A stretch of DNA of 64,000 bases. Origin: Schizochytrium sp. TIO01. Its lineage: Eukaryota; Sar; Bigyra; Thraustochytrida; Thraustochytriidae. Under the pieces are notes generated by a model. That model had not been told where the DNA came from. It searched no databases and saw nothing but the letters and a program-made list of their open reading frames with translations. Of the stretch, positions 21,142 to 46,066 are shown in pieces. A program made the translations under genes and the position numbers. The DNA lies in NCBI GenBank assembly GCA_004764695.1, contig SMSO01000031.1:1114600-1178599 (forward strand). The letters run 5' to 3'. Each line of letters opens with the position of its first letter. Within the stretch, counting starts at the first letter, position 1.

Positions 21142-23374
21142 ATGAAAAGCTCTGGCTTGGGGTCTGAAAACGCAAACAAAGTGGATACAGAAGAGCTCGA
21201 AGGAGAAACTTCGGACGAAGAAGACAATTGCACGATGCCTCAGTTACTTTCCAGAGCGGCCGCAGCTGCATTTTCGCGTAGCTCTAGACTCTTCGCAGCG
21301 CCCGGCGCTAAAACTTCAGCTCCTTCATCATCATCATCATCGTCGTCTTCTTCGTCTTCTTCTTCTTCTTCTTCTTCATCTTCTTTTTTATCGCCTTCTG
21401 TATTGTTTTTACCCTCATCAAGGTCAGTTTCACAATTTCTGACTAGACAAAAACAGACTACTCCTGTTTTAACGAGTATGGAGGCGAGGAGCACAAGTTC
21501 TTCTGGGAGTGTGGATTCTAAGAGTTTGGATTCCAGGAAACGAAGTACTACGGAACCAACCTCGAGTGCAGTTTTGAGTACAGCAGATATTACTTCCAGG
21601 ACCGAAAAGGTTCCTATAATGGGGAAGAGAGGATCCTCCAGGATCGAGCGGTCTTCGGAAGATGAGTTTGATCAGCAGCAGAGTTCTAAGCGTAAGCGGC
21701 GAAAGCGTCCTGCATTGGAGGCTCCTGCTCCAGAGGTACGCAAGGATGCTCTGACCGGCATTCAAGGAAACGCAGGGTGTTTCCCTTCTTCGTTTTCTGG
21801 ATCATTATCGTCCTCCTCCTCCGTCGTCGTCGTCGCCATCACCAGCAAGGGCGGCAGTGACAACATCTTCAACAAGAAAAACCAGAAAAAGGCACCATGA
21901 CGTAGATCAAGATCAGAGAATTTCAGACGAACGTGAGTTGCAATCCAAGTCATCTATTGTCAATCTCTATCCTTTACCGAATGTATTGTCTACAAGAGGT
22001 GCATATGACCCAGAGGGATTATCAGAAGCATCCCGCCCTCATCGGAAATCTACACGGCAAGATCGGGCGGTAAATTGTCATAGTCCACGTGTGAGCCAAG
22101 ATGCAGCCGCGTTGATTCCTCCCAATCCATTTATTTTTCAAAAAAACTCACCTGCTGAGACTCGGGTAGAACATGCCCAAACACCATCAGCTGCGCCAGC
22201 TCAAAAGTCAAAAAAGCCTAGACCAGACCCGAGCGGAAGCACCGCCCTTCGGGAGGAAGTATGCGACCGCGATCTTATTGACTATGCTCTCTTTTGGGCC
22301 ACTACGGAAGGAAAGTTTACGGTCGTGCAAGAAATTTTCAAGGAACCTAGATTGGACCCAGCGCGTGACAGATATGCCAGTCTTTGTATTGCTGCGCAAA
22401 ATGGGCATTTAGATATTGTAGAATTCTTCTTACAAGACGATCGGGTAGATCCAGCGGAGGCAACAAAGCGAGCCTTTCTTGCCGCTTTGCGCACAAATCA
22501 AACAAAAGTTCTCCAATATCTTTCATCCAACTATGAACTAGCTGCAATAGACCCCAAGACTCTTCTGGAAAAGGCTCGTGAGAAATGCTCTCTTGGCGTG
22601 ATTCAAGTTTTACTTGAACTTCCAAGCACAGATGTTTCAATCAAAGGCTATGCAGTGTTTAAAGAAGCCAAAAAGATGGAGAATATCAAGCTTTTAAAGC
22701 TACTTGTACAACATCGTACAGCACGCCTTGACGAGGTTCTGCGCTGTCTTGACTGCCATGATGAGAAAGTATCCAAACTTATGGATAGATTTTTTGACGA
22801 ACTTGATGTTCAAGTTGAAACAGCTCATCAAATTCTTGAGCAAGGACACAGAATGCGTGGTTTCAAACGTAAAGCGGACGCTGACAGTGGGAAAACGTCC
22901 AAAAAAGATGCTCGCTCGGCTGCCATTATGTTACTCCCATCATCTTGCTTTACTCCTGATATTCAGGATGCGGAGAAGTTTCCAAGCTTCGTCACGACGG
23001 GCAATTTGTTGATATTTCGACAAGCCGGAGGTCTAGGTTTTGGCATTGGTCGGGCACTGTCTGATGGGAAATTTGGTTCTTCTGTGCAAGTGTTGCAATT
23101 CCATGCTCTCAATGACAAAGAAGGCGGTCCATTGAAACCTCCCATTACCTTGGTGACTTCCTCTCCTTCTAAAAGGAAATCTAAGTCATCGTCGCGGCCT
23201 GCTATTGCTACCGAGGATGTGTCAATGAGTCGTGTCGTTCTATCTTGGAATCTTGATGGTTCTCCTTTCGAAAAGTGTAAGCTTACATTTAGTGTGCTAG
23301 AGAGCATGAGCGAGTGCCTAATAACTCCAGGAGACCCAGAAGAGGCCATCAAGGAGGTCGTGGTTTTAGAGTAG
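21142..23374 (+). CDS. Ankyrin-repeat-like protein, two exons
   Basis: Proposed as exon 1 at 21142-21691 and exon 2 at 21846-23374 (692 residues). A GTAAGC donor at 21692 and a pyrimidine-rich ..CATCACCAG acceptor ending at 21845 define a 154-base intron that joins the two frames in phase. The second frame has no ATG near its 5' end, which supports splicing. The N-terminal half is Ser-rich and basic, with a long poly-Ser tract (about residues 55-80) and nuclear-type basic patches (KTRKRHHD). The middle has ankyrin-like units such as CIAAQNGHLDIVEFFLQDD followed by RVDPA, then degenerate copies (VIQVLLELPSTDVS, IKLLKLLVQHRTA). The C-terminal ~160 residues are unrecognised. A nuclear scaffold role is inference. 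Confidence 0.7.
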
Positions 23375-23987
23375 TTTACCACATACTAAACTAGTCTTGG
23401 GCTTTCTTTGATCTGCCCAAACTGCTTTTTCAAACAAACAAAAAAGTGTATAGAAAGAAACCATCCAGACTATAGTCTGGATGGATGTGTGAGTTATGGA
23501 AAAGCTGTTGGTATTGTAAGCCGAGCATTGATCTCTACGTGCTTGGCTACTGATAGAGCGCAAGAAGAAATGTATGCGTTCATATGAACGATTCCTCTGA
23601 AAGTAAATTTTATCATCTATGAGTTCAACAACACTAAAAAGCACTAAAGACGGCTAAACCTGATCGCTATTCTGTTCTGTGCCAAATAAAAGATCTCGTG
23701 GTATATAAATAACAGGCCTGTGTGATACCATTATCATTACACGCGCCTGACCCCATGACTGTAATCAATTATGTGCTGCTCACAAATATATGATTTTTAA
23801 AAAGACATTAAAAGAAAATTGTTTCATTTGCACGACCATTCGAAAACGTCTGCATGCTTTTATGTCCTAGCTGATCCTATTAATTGTTTAGAACTTATAT
23901 AACATCCAAATGGTAGTGACTATTCCATATGAATAATATAGTATAATTATTTAGGCCCTTGTTAAGCAGTGGAGGTTAAGGTAGAAA
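23375..23987. other. Spacer with a 24-bp perfect palindrome
   Basis: AT-rich spacer between the ankyrin-like gene and the transposon relic. The only structure seen is the palindrome at 23461-23484, annotated separately. Confidence 0.5.
23461..23484. repeat. Perfect 24-bp palindrome
   Basis: The half-site CCATCCAGACTA is followed immediately by its exact reverse complement, with no spacer. It lies 87 bases after the stop of the ankyrin-like gene and about 500 bases before the recombinase relic. It could be a 3'-end hairpin in the transcript or a dyad protein-binding site. Confidence 0.8.
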
Positions 23988-24357
23988 ATGGCATGGCCAA
24001 GGAACCACCAAGCTTCAAGCTCTACAAGTGAAACAAACCTACAACACAAGCCAGTAAAGCAACTCAAACAGAAGTTTGGCGTCTCAGCAAATGCCATTTG
24101 GGTGCATAATCGCATAAACGTAAGTGCCAACGTTGAGCGCACTTTTTGTTGCGGTTTGTTCCGGCGGTTGCGAGCAACGCAGCACTGGCCTCACCATTAT
24201 CTATGTCAGAGTGTCCTCGGCCAGCCAAAAGAGAATTTCAAATGCCAGATCAGTGACCTTCGGCATGCCTATCCACACGCCACCGCCATCTAAAAAGACA
24301 TCAGTAGAGGGGTCAACTTCAAAAAGGCCGGACTTGCGCGTCCTTCTGGACTACTGA
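23988..24357 (+). pseudogene. IS607-type serine recombinase (TnpA) relic, frameshifted
   Basis: One frame from 23988 gives a helix-turn-helix-like segment, KQLKQKFGVSANAIWVHNR (about 24057-24113), followed by ERTFCCGLFRR, which resembles the RT-x-GG-x-RR end of the MerR-like DNA-binding domain of IS607 TnpA. A different frame then gives LTIIYVRVSSASQK (24190-24231), the serine-recombinase motif with the catalytic Ser in RVSS. About 30 codons later comes SVEGSTSKRPDLRVLLD (24301-24351), matching the family pattern SG-x-N-x-KR-x-x-L-x-x-LL at the expected distance. At least one frameshift separates the two parts, and the chain stops at 24357, well short of a full catalytic domain. Not functional as it stands. 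Confidence 0.6.
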
Positions 24358-24552
24358 GATTCACTATTTTGACTCTGTGAAACTTACTGTGTTTCCTTTT
24401 GCCTAAATTTGACACCTCCCAGATGACCCTTACAATTTAACAAGGCGGATCAAAAATAAGACAGTTCGAATGATGTGTTGATGGGGCCTTTTTAGCTTCC
24501 GTCAAGCGCTTATCCACAAAGCCTAGCTTTTCCTCTAGTGTGAAGGCGTTAT

Positions 24553-24786
24553 TTGCTGAGAGGATTACACTTCAAAGCATGCAATGAGTGTGGTACTACA
24601 CTTGACAAGCTCAGAGCACCCAAGGTTTTCAATTGCCCAAAATGCAGACACATAGCCTATCGTGATGTTTACGCTGCCAGATGCATCGTTTCGCCCTACC
24701 TATACAAGGACATGATTAAAGAATCGTCTTTGAGTTGCGGACTAGTTTTTAACACGCGATTGGGCCTTAGTCCCATGTCACCATAG
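24553..24786 (+). pseudogene. Fanzor/TnpB C-terminal zinc-ribbon relic
   Basis: The frame has no ATG at its 5' end and is a fragment. It encodes ACNECGTTLDKLRAPKVFNC, then PKCRHIAYRDVYAARCI. The CxxC...CxxC ribbon followed by YRDVxAAR is the C-terminal zinc ribbon plus third RuvC motif (normally DRDxNAAxN) of TnpB, Cas12 ancestors and eukaryotic Fanzor nucleases. The catalytic-type Asp in RDV is kept, but Asn of NAA has become Tyr. The RuvC-I/II parts and the wedge and REC domains are absent. A stop codon lies directly upstream in frame (24541). No guide-RNA (omega RNA) region could be recognised downstream. Confidence 0.6.
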
Positions 24787-25141
24787 GAAATACAAGTTTG
24801 TAAATCTATTTTAATAAATTGTACGCACCACATGATGAGGAACGAAATGACTGCCGGCTTTATACGTAACAAACAAAGCATTCTTGAATCGCAAGTACAA
24901 GAGAAACGTATAATTTCTTCAGTTGGTATTCTTTTTATAATTATTTCTTTATGGGGACACTTAAAAGGAATGTTTAATGACTAAGATTTTCCTTTTGTCT
25001 CAAAACATGTACTTCGAGAATATAGAATGTTTTGTTATTTGAAGGTCTGCATGGTAGAATCGAACATTTGATGGACATGCCCTCGGTTCACGCGAGGCCT
25101 GTTCTTGCTATTTTGTTATGAGACGTACCAATTCTGCTTGA
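24787..25141. other. Spacer between the transposon relic and the AlkB-like gene
   Basis: AT-rich 355 bases with no recognisable coding sequence. If the nuclease relic once carried a guide RNA, its DNA would have lain here, but nothing identifiable remains. Confidence 0.4.
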
Positions 25142-25898
25142 TTATTGGTTTCGACCAGAACGGCCCATGCCGAGATCCTCGGCAGAGGGAACGTCATTCT
25201 CGGTGACACGACTTCCGGCAGCACTCATATTGGAGAGGCCCCAGGCAATGATTGAAATTCGGTCCTCTGGGGCTGGGCCTTCAAGAGGAATGACGCCGTG
25301 CCTGAACTCAATGTTCACATCACGTGAGAACGTGTACGCAGAACCATTAGGAGCTTCCATGAAGATCTTTGTCTTGGTGCGGGCGTGCTCAAAGCCGACC
25401 TCGCGGTTAAGACCAAAGCTAGCAGCCACAGTAAGGTTTTGCGGACAGTCTGGTGTAAAGGCAGCGCGATCGTGGTGAAAGGGCTTCCAATCAGTTGAGC
25501 CCTTGCGGTACAAGTTGAATCGTGTCGCGTTGATTTTCATGTCGAAGACCTCCTCCATCTTTCGGATAACCTCACGAAAGGCAGGGGATTTTTGCTTCCA
25601 TTCACCCTTTTGGAATTTGTCGTTTGCAATCTCATGCGTATCACCATGCCAAAGGGTGAAAAGTGATTCGTTGCCTTCAGCTTGATGAATTTCCTTCTTC
25701 AGGGCTTCAAAGACAGTGGTGTCATCCTGGTCACAGAACAGGTTAGGGGCAAAAATCACATCATGAACCGTGAGATTCTCTACCTTGCGTCCACCCGTGA
25801 GAACCTTGACGCGGAGATCCGGTTTATCAAAGCGAGGCGTGAAGTCAGTGGTGTTCTTTGGTTTGCGGTTTCGCGAGGCCTTGTTTCCATTCTTGGCC

Positions 25899-25930
<32 letters not shown>

Positions 25931-26094
25931 GCCCTTGCATTCGCTCCGGCCTCCCTTGTTGTTATTGTTGTTGTTGCTGTTGCTGCTGTTGTCGGCATTC
26001 TTGTTCTTATCACTGATGCTCATGTTTGCAACCTCTTGAGCAAGTGCATCGGGGCCATCGTTGCTTTTGGTCTCCTTCTTAGGACGGGCGCTGA

Positions 26095-26185
<91 letters not shown>

Positions 26186-26401
26186 ACGATTCCTTCGCCG
26201 GTCTCTACCTCCGCGAGATCTCCGCTGTTGGCCATTTCCATTTCCATTTCCAGTTCCGTTGGCAGGAATGTTCTTCTCCCCAGAGCCTCGCTGCTCACCA
26301 CGTTCGCGACTCTTGGACTCCGCTACCTCAGCTGTAGGCTTGGAAGTCGGCTTCTTCTCTGTACCAGGCACGAAGGGTGCTGCATCTGCATGAAGCGACA
26401 T
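25142..26401 (-). CDS. AlkB-like 2OG-Fe(II) dioxygenase with N-terminal PAM2 motif
   Basis: 419 residues from the ATG at 26401; the frame continues upstream only from a TTG. The first residues, MSLHADAAPFVPG, fit the PAM2 consensus L-x-x-x-A-x-x-F-x-P (L3, A7, F10, P12), which binds the MLLE domain of poly(A)-binding protein. A basic RRSRGGRDRRR segment and about 30 consecutive Asn follow, then two shorter Asn runs. The C-terminal ~200 residues are a 2-oxoglutarate/Fe(II) oxygenase domain of AlkB type: NLYRKGSTDWKPFHHD with iron ligands H309 and D311, GLNREVGFEH, FRHGVIP with iron ligand H368, and EDRISI with the 2OG-binding R381. These enzymes remove alkyl groups from nucleic acids or hydroxylate proteins. 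Together the parts suggest an mRNA-associated oxidase; substrate unknown. Confidence 0.85.
26097..26185. repeat. Coding (AAC)n tract, about 30 copies
   Basis: An almost pure TTG/AAC triplet array inside the AlkB-like gene, read as poly-Asn on the minus strand. A shorter array lies at about 25908-25932. Antisense frames through it give poly-Val or poly-Leu and are artefacts. Confidence 0.95.
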
Positions 26402-28237
26402 GGCTGCTCTCCTGTTCTCTCGCACAAATACCAGGACTTCTTCAATCAACAGAACACGTTTCGCTAGAGGCAAGCACACCCAGCCCTCAAAAACTCGATT
26501 GCTCAACCAAGCGACCCGCTGATCCGTGTCTATCCAATATTCGTGTGACCATCACCAGTCCGGCAATCCATGATCTCAATCAAACCTAACCATCATTCTC
26601 AAATATCATCAGAGTAACAAAATCGTTCTTCTTCCCCAAAGATGACGTGATGATGACATCATAACTACCACCGTTCTGCGCCTTCTTTCTTTCTTGTGCA
26701 TATAAAAGGTCAGCTCATCATGTTTTTGATCCAACATCTTGACCATCAATTAAGAGTACTCGGACCTCAAACCAAACTGAAGCGACTGGTTTGACCCATT
26801 GGAAATCATCCAAGAGCGCATGCCTACAGGAATCGACGGTGAAAAGCTTTGGGGAACACACGTGAATTCTTGAAGACCATCTGCAAATTGCAAAAACCCA
26901 CGAGGGTAAACGTTAGGTTCAAAATCCAACGAATTTTAAATTTCCAACGAAATAAATAAAAGCACTATAAAATTGGCTTATTTTAGAAAGAGCGACGCGA
27001 CCGATCTTTAAAAGACCCGCACACGCGCCCCCTTTTGTAAATGCTACACACCTCCACCCTCGAGTTGATATACACTTGGTGGCCATATAGGCTAGGGACC
27101 ATGCCGGGAGTTGATTAGATATGGGTGCAAAAGTGTATACACGTGCACGCGCTGCACGACCCTCGTTCCTTTGGTGAATAATAGATGAGGGTTTCAGGTT
27201 TCCAGGGTTTGGGGCGAGATCAAAACCAGAGAAGCTAGAAAGAGGTTTCCGTCAACCCTTGGCATCCCCCTTTGTGCAACGTCAAGGTCTTGTGACAACT
27301 TTTGAGGTCCTGAGCTACAGGGCTTCCACAGCATCAACTGGTGATGGCGTGAGAGTGACAGACAGGAAGAACAAACAACTTCAAACAAGCAGGTTTTGAA
27401 GCTTTCCGCTACGACTATAAAGTCACTGCTCTTTCGCAGAAATTAGGAGTGAGCCTGAGGGCGACGACCTCGACGTCATATTGTGAATTTGCGAGGCATT
27501 AGTGTTGCTCAGGTCGGGTCACTGTCGTGTTAGTTTGAGGCTTTCTACTGCCGCTTCAGAGTGCAGAAGGCGGTGCAGAAGTAGGGCTCCTAGTATCTAA
27601 CACATTTACGCAATTCACGCGCTCGCATAGCTTGCATTGCGACTAAGAACTAAGAGGTGCTACCTCTGTGCTAGTGCGGGTCCTAGCAGATCGTGGTTAC
27701 CGAGTCTAGGCAATTTCAAGAGCTTAAAACGTGGGCAGAATACTTTTCTGAACGAACGAGCGATCAAGGTGTGCACGGGTCTGAAGATTAACTTTCGCGA
27801 GCACCAAATCCCTGATTCATCACTGAGCAAGGTTTGTTGCGGCTGCCTTTGCTGTTTTGGCCTGGGGAACAGTGACCGTGACGACTGCAAACAAAGCTTC
27901 TCCGGACCCAAAACTCTTTTTGAGCCCACGCACGTCTGAGCCCTTTGCTGTCCTTCCCAAACTCAGTTGGAGCTCCACTCGTTTTCTTCCGTGCTTGTAG
28001 AGCTATAGAAATCGCTGAGAGCACAAAACCGAGCCGGTTTTACGTCTCGTGAACTGCAGTAGAGGAGTTACAAACCGAGAGGTTGAGTTCGCCAAAGACT
28101 ACTCTACTCTATTCCGTGGGCATATATCTATTCGCATCCACAATTTAGTGCTGTGAGGTTTGCAGCGCTCAATTTCCGAAGTTCGCTTCACCTTTATAGT
28201 TGTTCCTTTGCATTCTTGCAACAGCGCGCCAATTACA
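26402..28237. other. Divergent spacer, no gene recognised
   Basis: 1.8 kb between the AlkB-like gene (-) and the calponin-homology gene (+). A TATAAAAGG word occurs near 26702 with no gene recognised downstream of it. Short frames at 27.2-28.0 kb show no family resemblance. Confidence 0.45.
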
Positions 28238-45975: not shown

Positions 45976-45991
45976 GCGGTCTTAGCTCAGG

Positions 45992-46024
<33 letters not shown>

Positions 46025-46048
46025 TGCGTTCGATCCGCGGAGACCGCA
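45976..46048 (+). tRNA. tRNA-Phe (GAA anticodon)
   Basis: 73 nt including the discriminator A; no intron and no encoded CCA. Acceptor stem GCGGTCT/AGACCGC (7 bp), D stem GCTC/GAGC, anticodon stem TCAGA/TCTGA with loop CTGAAGA giving anticodon GAA, a 5-nt variable loop, and T stem CTGCG/CGCGG with loop TTCGATC. Internal A and B boxes are intact. Confidence 0.97.
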
Positions 46049-46052
46049 TTTG

Positions 46053-46066
46053 TTTTTTTTTTTTTT
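46053..46066 (+). terminator. Pol III terminator (T14) of tRNA-Phe
   Basis: A run of 14 T begins five bases after the tRNA end, the usual RNA polymerase III termination signal, though longer than the usual minimum. Confidence 0.9.

Follow-up and report, generated by a model that had tools for sequence, protein, structure and literature searches.

Does the decayed IS607-like and Fanzor-like coding sequence at 23988..24786 of the window (the whole 64,000-nucleotide stretch of a Schizochytrium sp. TIO01 contig analysed here) represent a single transposon that lost its middle in place, or one copy of an element that multiplied in an already shortened form? The preliminary description, made from the window alone, had read it as an IS607-type transposon that suffered a large internal deletion at this locus. 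A gap relative to full-length copies is indeed present, while the deletion is not private to the locus, since the same spacing is found in 40 of 71 paired loci and the joint is common to other short copies. Very probably, in our view, a non-autonomous element left a copy here that has long been dead; this element would stem from one deleted IS607/Fanzor2 ancestor, multiplied via the TnpA of full-length relatives.

Identity and extent of the window copy

The TnpA of the intact copy L013, used as tblastn query, matches 23988-24335 in the window (E 1.8e-20), and its Fanzor matches 24381-24717, where the remnant is split over three frames (E 8.6e-26). None of 20 mononucleotide-shuffled windows reached E<1e-3 with these two queries. 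The significance of the window fragments is owed to the query, L013 being an intact relative from the same genome. The identity proposed for the segment, an IS607-type TnpA together with a Fanzor, was thereby confirmed, and the CxxC...CxxC zinc ribbon lies where it had been placed. Profile searches, suggested beforehand for both fragments, brought the zinc-ribbon frame (24544-24783) to 26.2 bits with Pfam PF07282 (Cas12f1-like_TNB), just below the cut-off of 26.3 (E 8.9e-6), while the resolvase fragment by itself was insignificant with PF00239 (13 bits, E 0.12) and no HTH model was among the Pfam matches listed for the first frame of the window copy. As to the two TnpA motifs named earlier, TIIYVRVSSASQK in frame 1 is genuine, whereas STSKRPDLRVLL is mostly out of frame, the true counterpart being found in frame 3 (Table 1).

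The features lie within the limits first drawn, and the element itself reaches further on both sides (Table 1). A covariance model of the right end (RE), with a seed that excluded the window copy, gives 60.4 bits (E 1.3e-12) for this copy at 24732-24827. The RE of the window copy is itself decayed, including the terminal pseudoknot partner, and is unreadable by direct pattern; of the region that carries the Fanzor fingerprint (see below) the ribbon part alone survives, and TnpA is broken.

The element sits between two convergent frames, 22154-23374 (+) and 25142-26551 (-), one with ankyrin repeats (PF12796, 58.3 bits) and the other with long Asn runs; for the latter no Pfam family scored above cut-off.

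Table 1 Features of the IS607/Fanzor2 'ghost' copy in the window.
Feature	Position	Strand (frame)	Basis
Entire decayed non-autonomous element	23872..24827	+	Similarity to other copies begins and ends about here; right end from covariance model
Target C and crossover dinucleotide TG, left end	23871..23873	+	CTG immediately 5' of the left-end core in short copies
Non-coding left end (LE)	23872..23987	+	28 short copies aligned; 23889-24102 is 72% identical to L013 (blastn)
tnpA remnant, frameshifted: MerR-like HTH region and start of serine-recombinase domain	23988..24335	+	tblastn, L013 TnpA 1-129
TIIYVRVSSASQK, counterpart of the catalytic-Ser motif of IS607 TnpA	24193..24231	+ (frame 1)	Corresponds to TVIYARVSSAKQK in intact copies
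RGVNFKKAGL, counterpart of SGVNFKRQGL	24306-24335	+ (frame 3)	Comparison with L013
Internal-deletion junction tnpA/Fanzor, common to other short copies	24359..24368	+	Full-length alignment runs to 24359 and resumes at 24368
Fanzor C-terminal remnant with stops and frameshifts	24381..24717	+ (three frames)	tblastn, L013 Fanzor 549-662
CxxC...CxxC zinc ribbon and last RuvC Asp (YRDVYAARCI)	24574..24684	+	PF07282, 26.2 bits
Right end, reRNA/omegaRNA-like fold	24732..24827	+	Covariance model R1; fold and pseudoknot predicted in relatives
Right flank, would-be guide stretch	24828..24847	+	Position, by analogy with PMC10711439 and PMC10432273

A family of short copies with a common joint

The genome searched (64.06 Mb in 37 contigs) gave 148 matches with the Fanzor fragment and 127 with the TnpA fragment. 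Pairing drew on the full set of 148 Fanzor rows and on 99 TnpA rows out of 127; the remaining 28 were judged by eye to repeat loci already counted, as second matches in a different frame. At least 139 Fanzor and at least 97 TnpA loci were obtained. Among at least 71 paired loci, TnpA and Fanzor are 301-432 bp apart in 40, more than 1300 bp apart in 24 and otherwise spaced in seven; the window copy, at 351 bp, falls in the first class. A DNA search with the window element yielded 43 matches from the best 40 of 227 first-look candidates, and 31 of the 42 non-window matches listed extend across the joint. The joint is alignable in 30 of 32 short copies (window counted), the other two, L026s and L032s, having a larger gap that spans the region and being hence not comparable there. 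By eye, 26 of the 30 pass from mid-tnpA directly into the near-end of Fanzor, and four (L033, L044, L047 and L049) have small deletions at the joint; a stricter 70-base query through the joint was satisfied by six of the 32 only. The same spacing and the same joint elsewhere make the window copy one of a multiplied non-autonomous element.

Similarity ends at about the same two points in 28 aligned short copies, and their flanks are unrelated. Column identity by codon position is flat in the 32 short copies (TnpA.658/.699/.676, Fanzor.684/.692/.676, SE.012-.014), which argues that both their spread and their decay took place as non-coding DNA; the absence of a codon-position signal also led us to reject selection acting on the ribbon of the short copies. 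The short copies thus have a common joint and common ends, lie in different places and are free of coding constraint. Many copies, one internal deletion, both ends kept and coding constraint absent are the properties by which we call the element a non-autonomous 'ghost'. In the simplest reading of the alignments the short copies would descend from one deletion.

In the tree, the mean terminal branch is 0.215 for short copies and 0.008 for young copies. Old copies that lack the deletion are placed within the short group at a support no higher than 0.78, so that the tree singles out no autonomous partner and formally allows a repeated origin.

Full-length young relatives

Intact copies had been thought possible elsewhere in the genome, and intact-looking ones were found: TnpA and Fanzor frames are both open in 9 of the 17 young loci examined (L013-L027, L031 and L032), with thresholds between stops of at least 230 codons for TnpA and at least 650 codons for Fanzor. 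The L013 TnpA scores 144.9 bits with the equivalog model NF033518 (transpos_IS607) of NCBIfam (cut-off 110) and 72.5 bits with PF00239, and matches solved IS607 catalytic domains with a best E of 1.1e-18; HTH models score below their own cut-offs with this protein. The L013 Fanzor scores 37.1 bits with PF12323 (HTH_OrfB) and 50.2 bits with PF07282. The combination of DPG with a shifted Glu, termed the molecular fingerprint of Fanzors (PMC10711439), was sought with a pattern relaxed from that source, namely DPG and a Glu positioned six residues N-terminal to the first ribbon Cys, the second knuckle being CxxxxC here; it is found in 15 of the 17 young loci and absent, under this pattern, from L031 and L032. 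The protein is assigned to Fanzor2 rather than Fanzor1 by the adjacent IS607 TnpA and by HTH_OrfB in its N-terminal part. In the Fanzor-only part of 15 of the 17 young loci (L014 and L031 omitted), informative sites number 36/29/54 at codon positions 1/2/3, as expected under coding constraint in the young Fanzor.

The Fanzor frame is open across tnpA, which lies in another frame (L013:3362-4068 and corresponding stretches of other young copies). Informative sites number 20 in 573 bases of this tnpA/Fanzor overlap versus 119 in 1282 Fanzor-only bases. The lower figure in the overlap may reflect translation of both frames.

A 294-bp dispersed repeat, the same one in five young copies (L021, L022, L023, C13:2774694 and C13:5455965), lies inside tnpA. 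In the genome search for this repeat, in which the best 40 of 130 candidates were scored, several pairs were about 5.2 kb apart, LTR-like. An intron was considered for the 294-bp insert of L021-L023 and rejected, the GT...AG borders being missing. The same break in tnpA at five places suggests, independently, movement in trans in the young lineage.

Element ends and crossover dinucleotides

At the RE, short copies have a CTAAG-like end followed by TG in 16 of 22 readable cases; at the LE, CTG was read in 10 and any NTG in 14 of 23 readable copies (32 examined). Old copies without the short deletion (L002, L005 and L056) likewise end in CTAAGTG. Young copies end in AG at the RE in 17 of 17, the search pattern itself having ended in AG with up to two errors allowed, and at the LE directly follow CAG in 12 of the 15 read, the motif being missing in three. 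The same crossover dinucleotide thus occurs at both ends, TG in short copies and AG in young ones. A dinucleotide altered at both ends together is as expected of IS607 recombination, which joins matching dinucleotides (PMC10711439).

No pre-insertion (empty) site was found when the 400-bp flanks of 15 young copies were compared locally with the collected sequences; apart from the query locus itself, the comparison returned old family copies and a single short repeat, nothing else. A regular target duplication was not seen at the young ends inspected, the exceptions being L024 (13 bp) and L061 (11 bp).

The RNA-like right end

A search for a conserved non-coding guide segment 3' of the nuclease had been suggested. 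A non-coding segment that folds with a pseudoknot is present there, while its covariation does not exceed that of shuffled controls. In many young copies the RE adopts a three-hairpin fold, and the loop CUUAG pairs with the terminal CUAAG in all five positions in 13 of 23 aligned copies (young, old and short); a conserved pseudoknot of this kind has been predicted for Fanzor2 (PMC10711439). The fold z-score is -2.93 in L013, -4.36 in the short copy in L032 and +1.37 in L002, an old copy that folds no better than shuffles. For the named structure, covariation is within the shuffled range (69 to 172 of 500 shuffles reach the observed values), the RE fold was missed when RNAalifold was applied to a longer alignment, just five pairs being predicted elsewhere, and the REs of three loci had no match in Rfam. 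We propose that the family likely has a putative reRNA at its right end; Fanzor could possibly have received guide RNAs in trans from the short copies as well.

The idea that the RNA-like end is specially conserved in the short copies was considered and rejected: pairwise identity is lower there (.575) than elsewhere in the element (.703 in the tnpA part and.743 in the ribbon part), with a possible contribution of alignment error at the ends.

How the short copies arose and spread

We propose the following course of events. An IS607-type Fanzor2 transposon would have lost the stretch from mid-tnpA to near the Fanzor end, leaving a shortened element of about 0.95 kb that retained both recombination ends and the RNA-like segment of the RE. 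TnpA from full-length relatives would have excised the short element and reinserted it, dozens of times, at short sites ending in a matching TG, and each inserted copy would subsequently have decayed neutrally. Later, a related lineage of full-length copies with AG, whose genes are still open, would have expanded. Mobilisation of the short copies in trans by the TnpA of full-length relatives is probable; the action of TnpA in trans, a circular intermediate and the single deletion event are the inferred parts of this account.

The short copies might instead have multiplied chiefly by Fanzor-guided cutting and template repair, in a homing-like manner. They do retain the guide-RNA-like end with its pseudoknot, open Fanzor genes are present in the genome, and guided cutting has been described as a retention mechanism for bacterial TnpB (PMC11870625). 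Such copying requires a matching target, however, and the flanks of the short copies are unrelated and have little in common beyond the end motif, as insertion by TnpA predicts, which makes this route improbable as the principal one.

That one full-length element lost its middle at this very locus would account for the internal gap of the window copy relative to full-length copies, but the spacing shared by 40 of 71 paired loci and the joint common to other short copies render such a private relic very improbable. Spread by segmental duplication instead of transposition could be suspected from the clustering of old copies in places, several lying on C7 within 164-186 kb and on C24 within 867-886 kb; yet the 28 aligned copies stop at about the same two points and their flanks are unalignable, and we regard duplication as extremely improbable. 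Chance motifs or pieces of unrelated host genes, to which the insignificance of the resolvase fragment alone in Pfam (E 0.12) might point, have a vanishing probability in view of the tblastn matches (E 1.8e-20 and 8.6e-26) and the 0 of 20 shuffles.

Comparison with known Fanzor elements

The closest precedent for the short copies is the 'ghost' Spu-1 of the Spizellomyces punctatus Fanzor1 (Saito et al. 2023, PMC10432273), which occurs at 134 loci of about 550 nt, from which the nuclease gene is missing while both ends and an omegaRNA-like right end are kept; gene-bearing Spu-1 loci number 42, of which 19 are full-length (PMC10432273). Spu-1 and the element described here are alike in having many short copies with kept ends and an RNA-like right end, and fewer gene-bearing loci, in the same genome. 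They differ in that Spu-1 is a Fanzor1 element with 30-nt terminal inverted repeats, whereas ours combines Fanzor2 with an IS607 serine recombinase, and in that our short copies keep coding remnants on either side of one deletion.

IS607-type Fanzor2 elements are known under names that include the Acanthamoeba and viral insertion sequences ACa-1/-2, ISvMimi_1/_2 and ISvAR158_1 (Bao and Jurka 2013, PMC3627910; NAR 2023, PMC10711439). With these the present family has in common a tnpA-like serine recombinase, dinucleotide-directed insertion, the DPG and shifted Glu, and a pseudoknotted reRNA, predicted here. In contrast to them, it has a multi-copy short derivative and a Fanzor frame that is open across tnpA, and its dinucleotides are AG and TG, as against GG in the IS607 example of PMC10711439. 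A distant likeness to cyanobacterial pro-Fanzors (a term of PMC10711439) follows from the best matches of the intact proteins in the collections searched, which for Fanzor were a protein of a Microcoleus phage (32.9%) and a TnpB encoded on a Trichormus plasmid (29.2%), and for TnpA, among plasmids, an IS607 transposase of Nostoc (35.8%). No close relative was found when IMG/VR and GTDB contigs were scanned with single sequences. The best solved-structure match of the intact Fanzor by sequence is the TnpB-like protein L79 (PDB code: 9b0l; E 2.5e-18), the match being confined to two stretches.

Among the papers listed by searches of the open-licence literature, none reports a multi-copy, internally deleted (non-autonomous) IS607/Fanzor2 element in a eukaryote. 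Non-autonomous elements have been recorded for Fanzor1, in association with inverted repeats, and the same life style is met here in a Fanzor2 element that has an IS607 serine recombinase. In a single eukaryotic genome, ghosts from an old burst coexist with full-length copies from a young one, the latter with open genes, so that natural junctions and small-RNA sequencing can be used to test what Fanzor does (whether it retains the donor copy and uses guides in trans).

Abnormal left ends of young copies

The first bases inside the young left end differ among close relatives, and in a few copies the left end is abnormal. L024 has AGAAGAAACAAAT on both sides, a direct repeat of 13 bp including AG (11 bases beyond AG), and an altered left end. 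L061 (C30:8395848-8396029) consists of about the last 180 bp of the element alone, with an exact RE; its left flank reads CAG, then nine bases that also occur 3' of the RE, then the truncated element. The last three of the nine repeated bases are a microhomology with the element, and the direct repeat is 11 bp including AG. In both L024 and L061 the right end is exact, the left end abnormal, and the direct repeat begins at the insertion dinucleotide. L014 is truncated at the left with CAG exactly at the junction.

Direct repeats beyond AG were rejected as a general rule, the other young copies having at most three bases in common with the right flank (three in L016 and L021, two in L025 and L026, fewer in the remaining young left ends).

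L024 and L061 fit a break at the insertion site that was repaired from one side, and Fanzor would be in a position to make such a break. A tentative and rather unlikely reading is that, in a eukaryote, Fanzor cuts the empty donor site of its own element and that some young copies bear the scars. A break inside the guide-matched site would be repaired by copying from the right, the copying would abort, and the left side would be end-joined; the same abortive repair copying from both sides would yield internally deleted ghosts. If this were so, ghosts, which keep their own guide-RNA gene, could parasitise Fanzor besides TnpA. Break repair of other origin is a possible source of the L024 and L061 repeats, two cases being insufficient to argue for Fanzor cutting.

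Truncated copies and repeats near young insertions

Young copies with a left end and a truncated right part occur at L062 (C31:6447570), C13:2774504 and C13:5455775. An old family copy lies within 400 bp of one end in 3 of 15 young insertions (L018, L026 and L032), a proximity that a rough hand estimate puts well above chance. In the window itself, about 86 bp at 45976-46059 are 95% identical to a piece of the right flank of L018, which marks this piece as a dispersed repeat.
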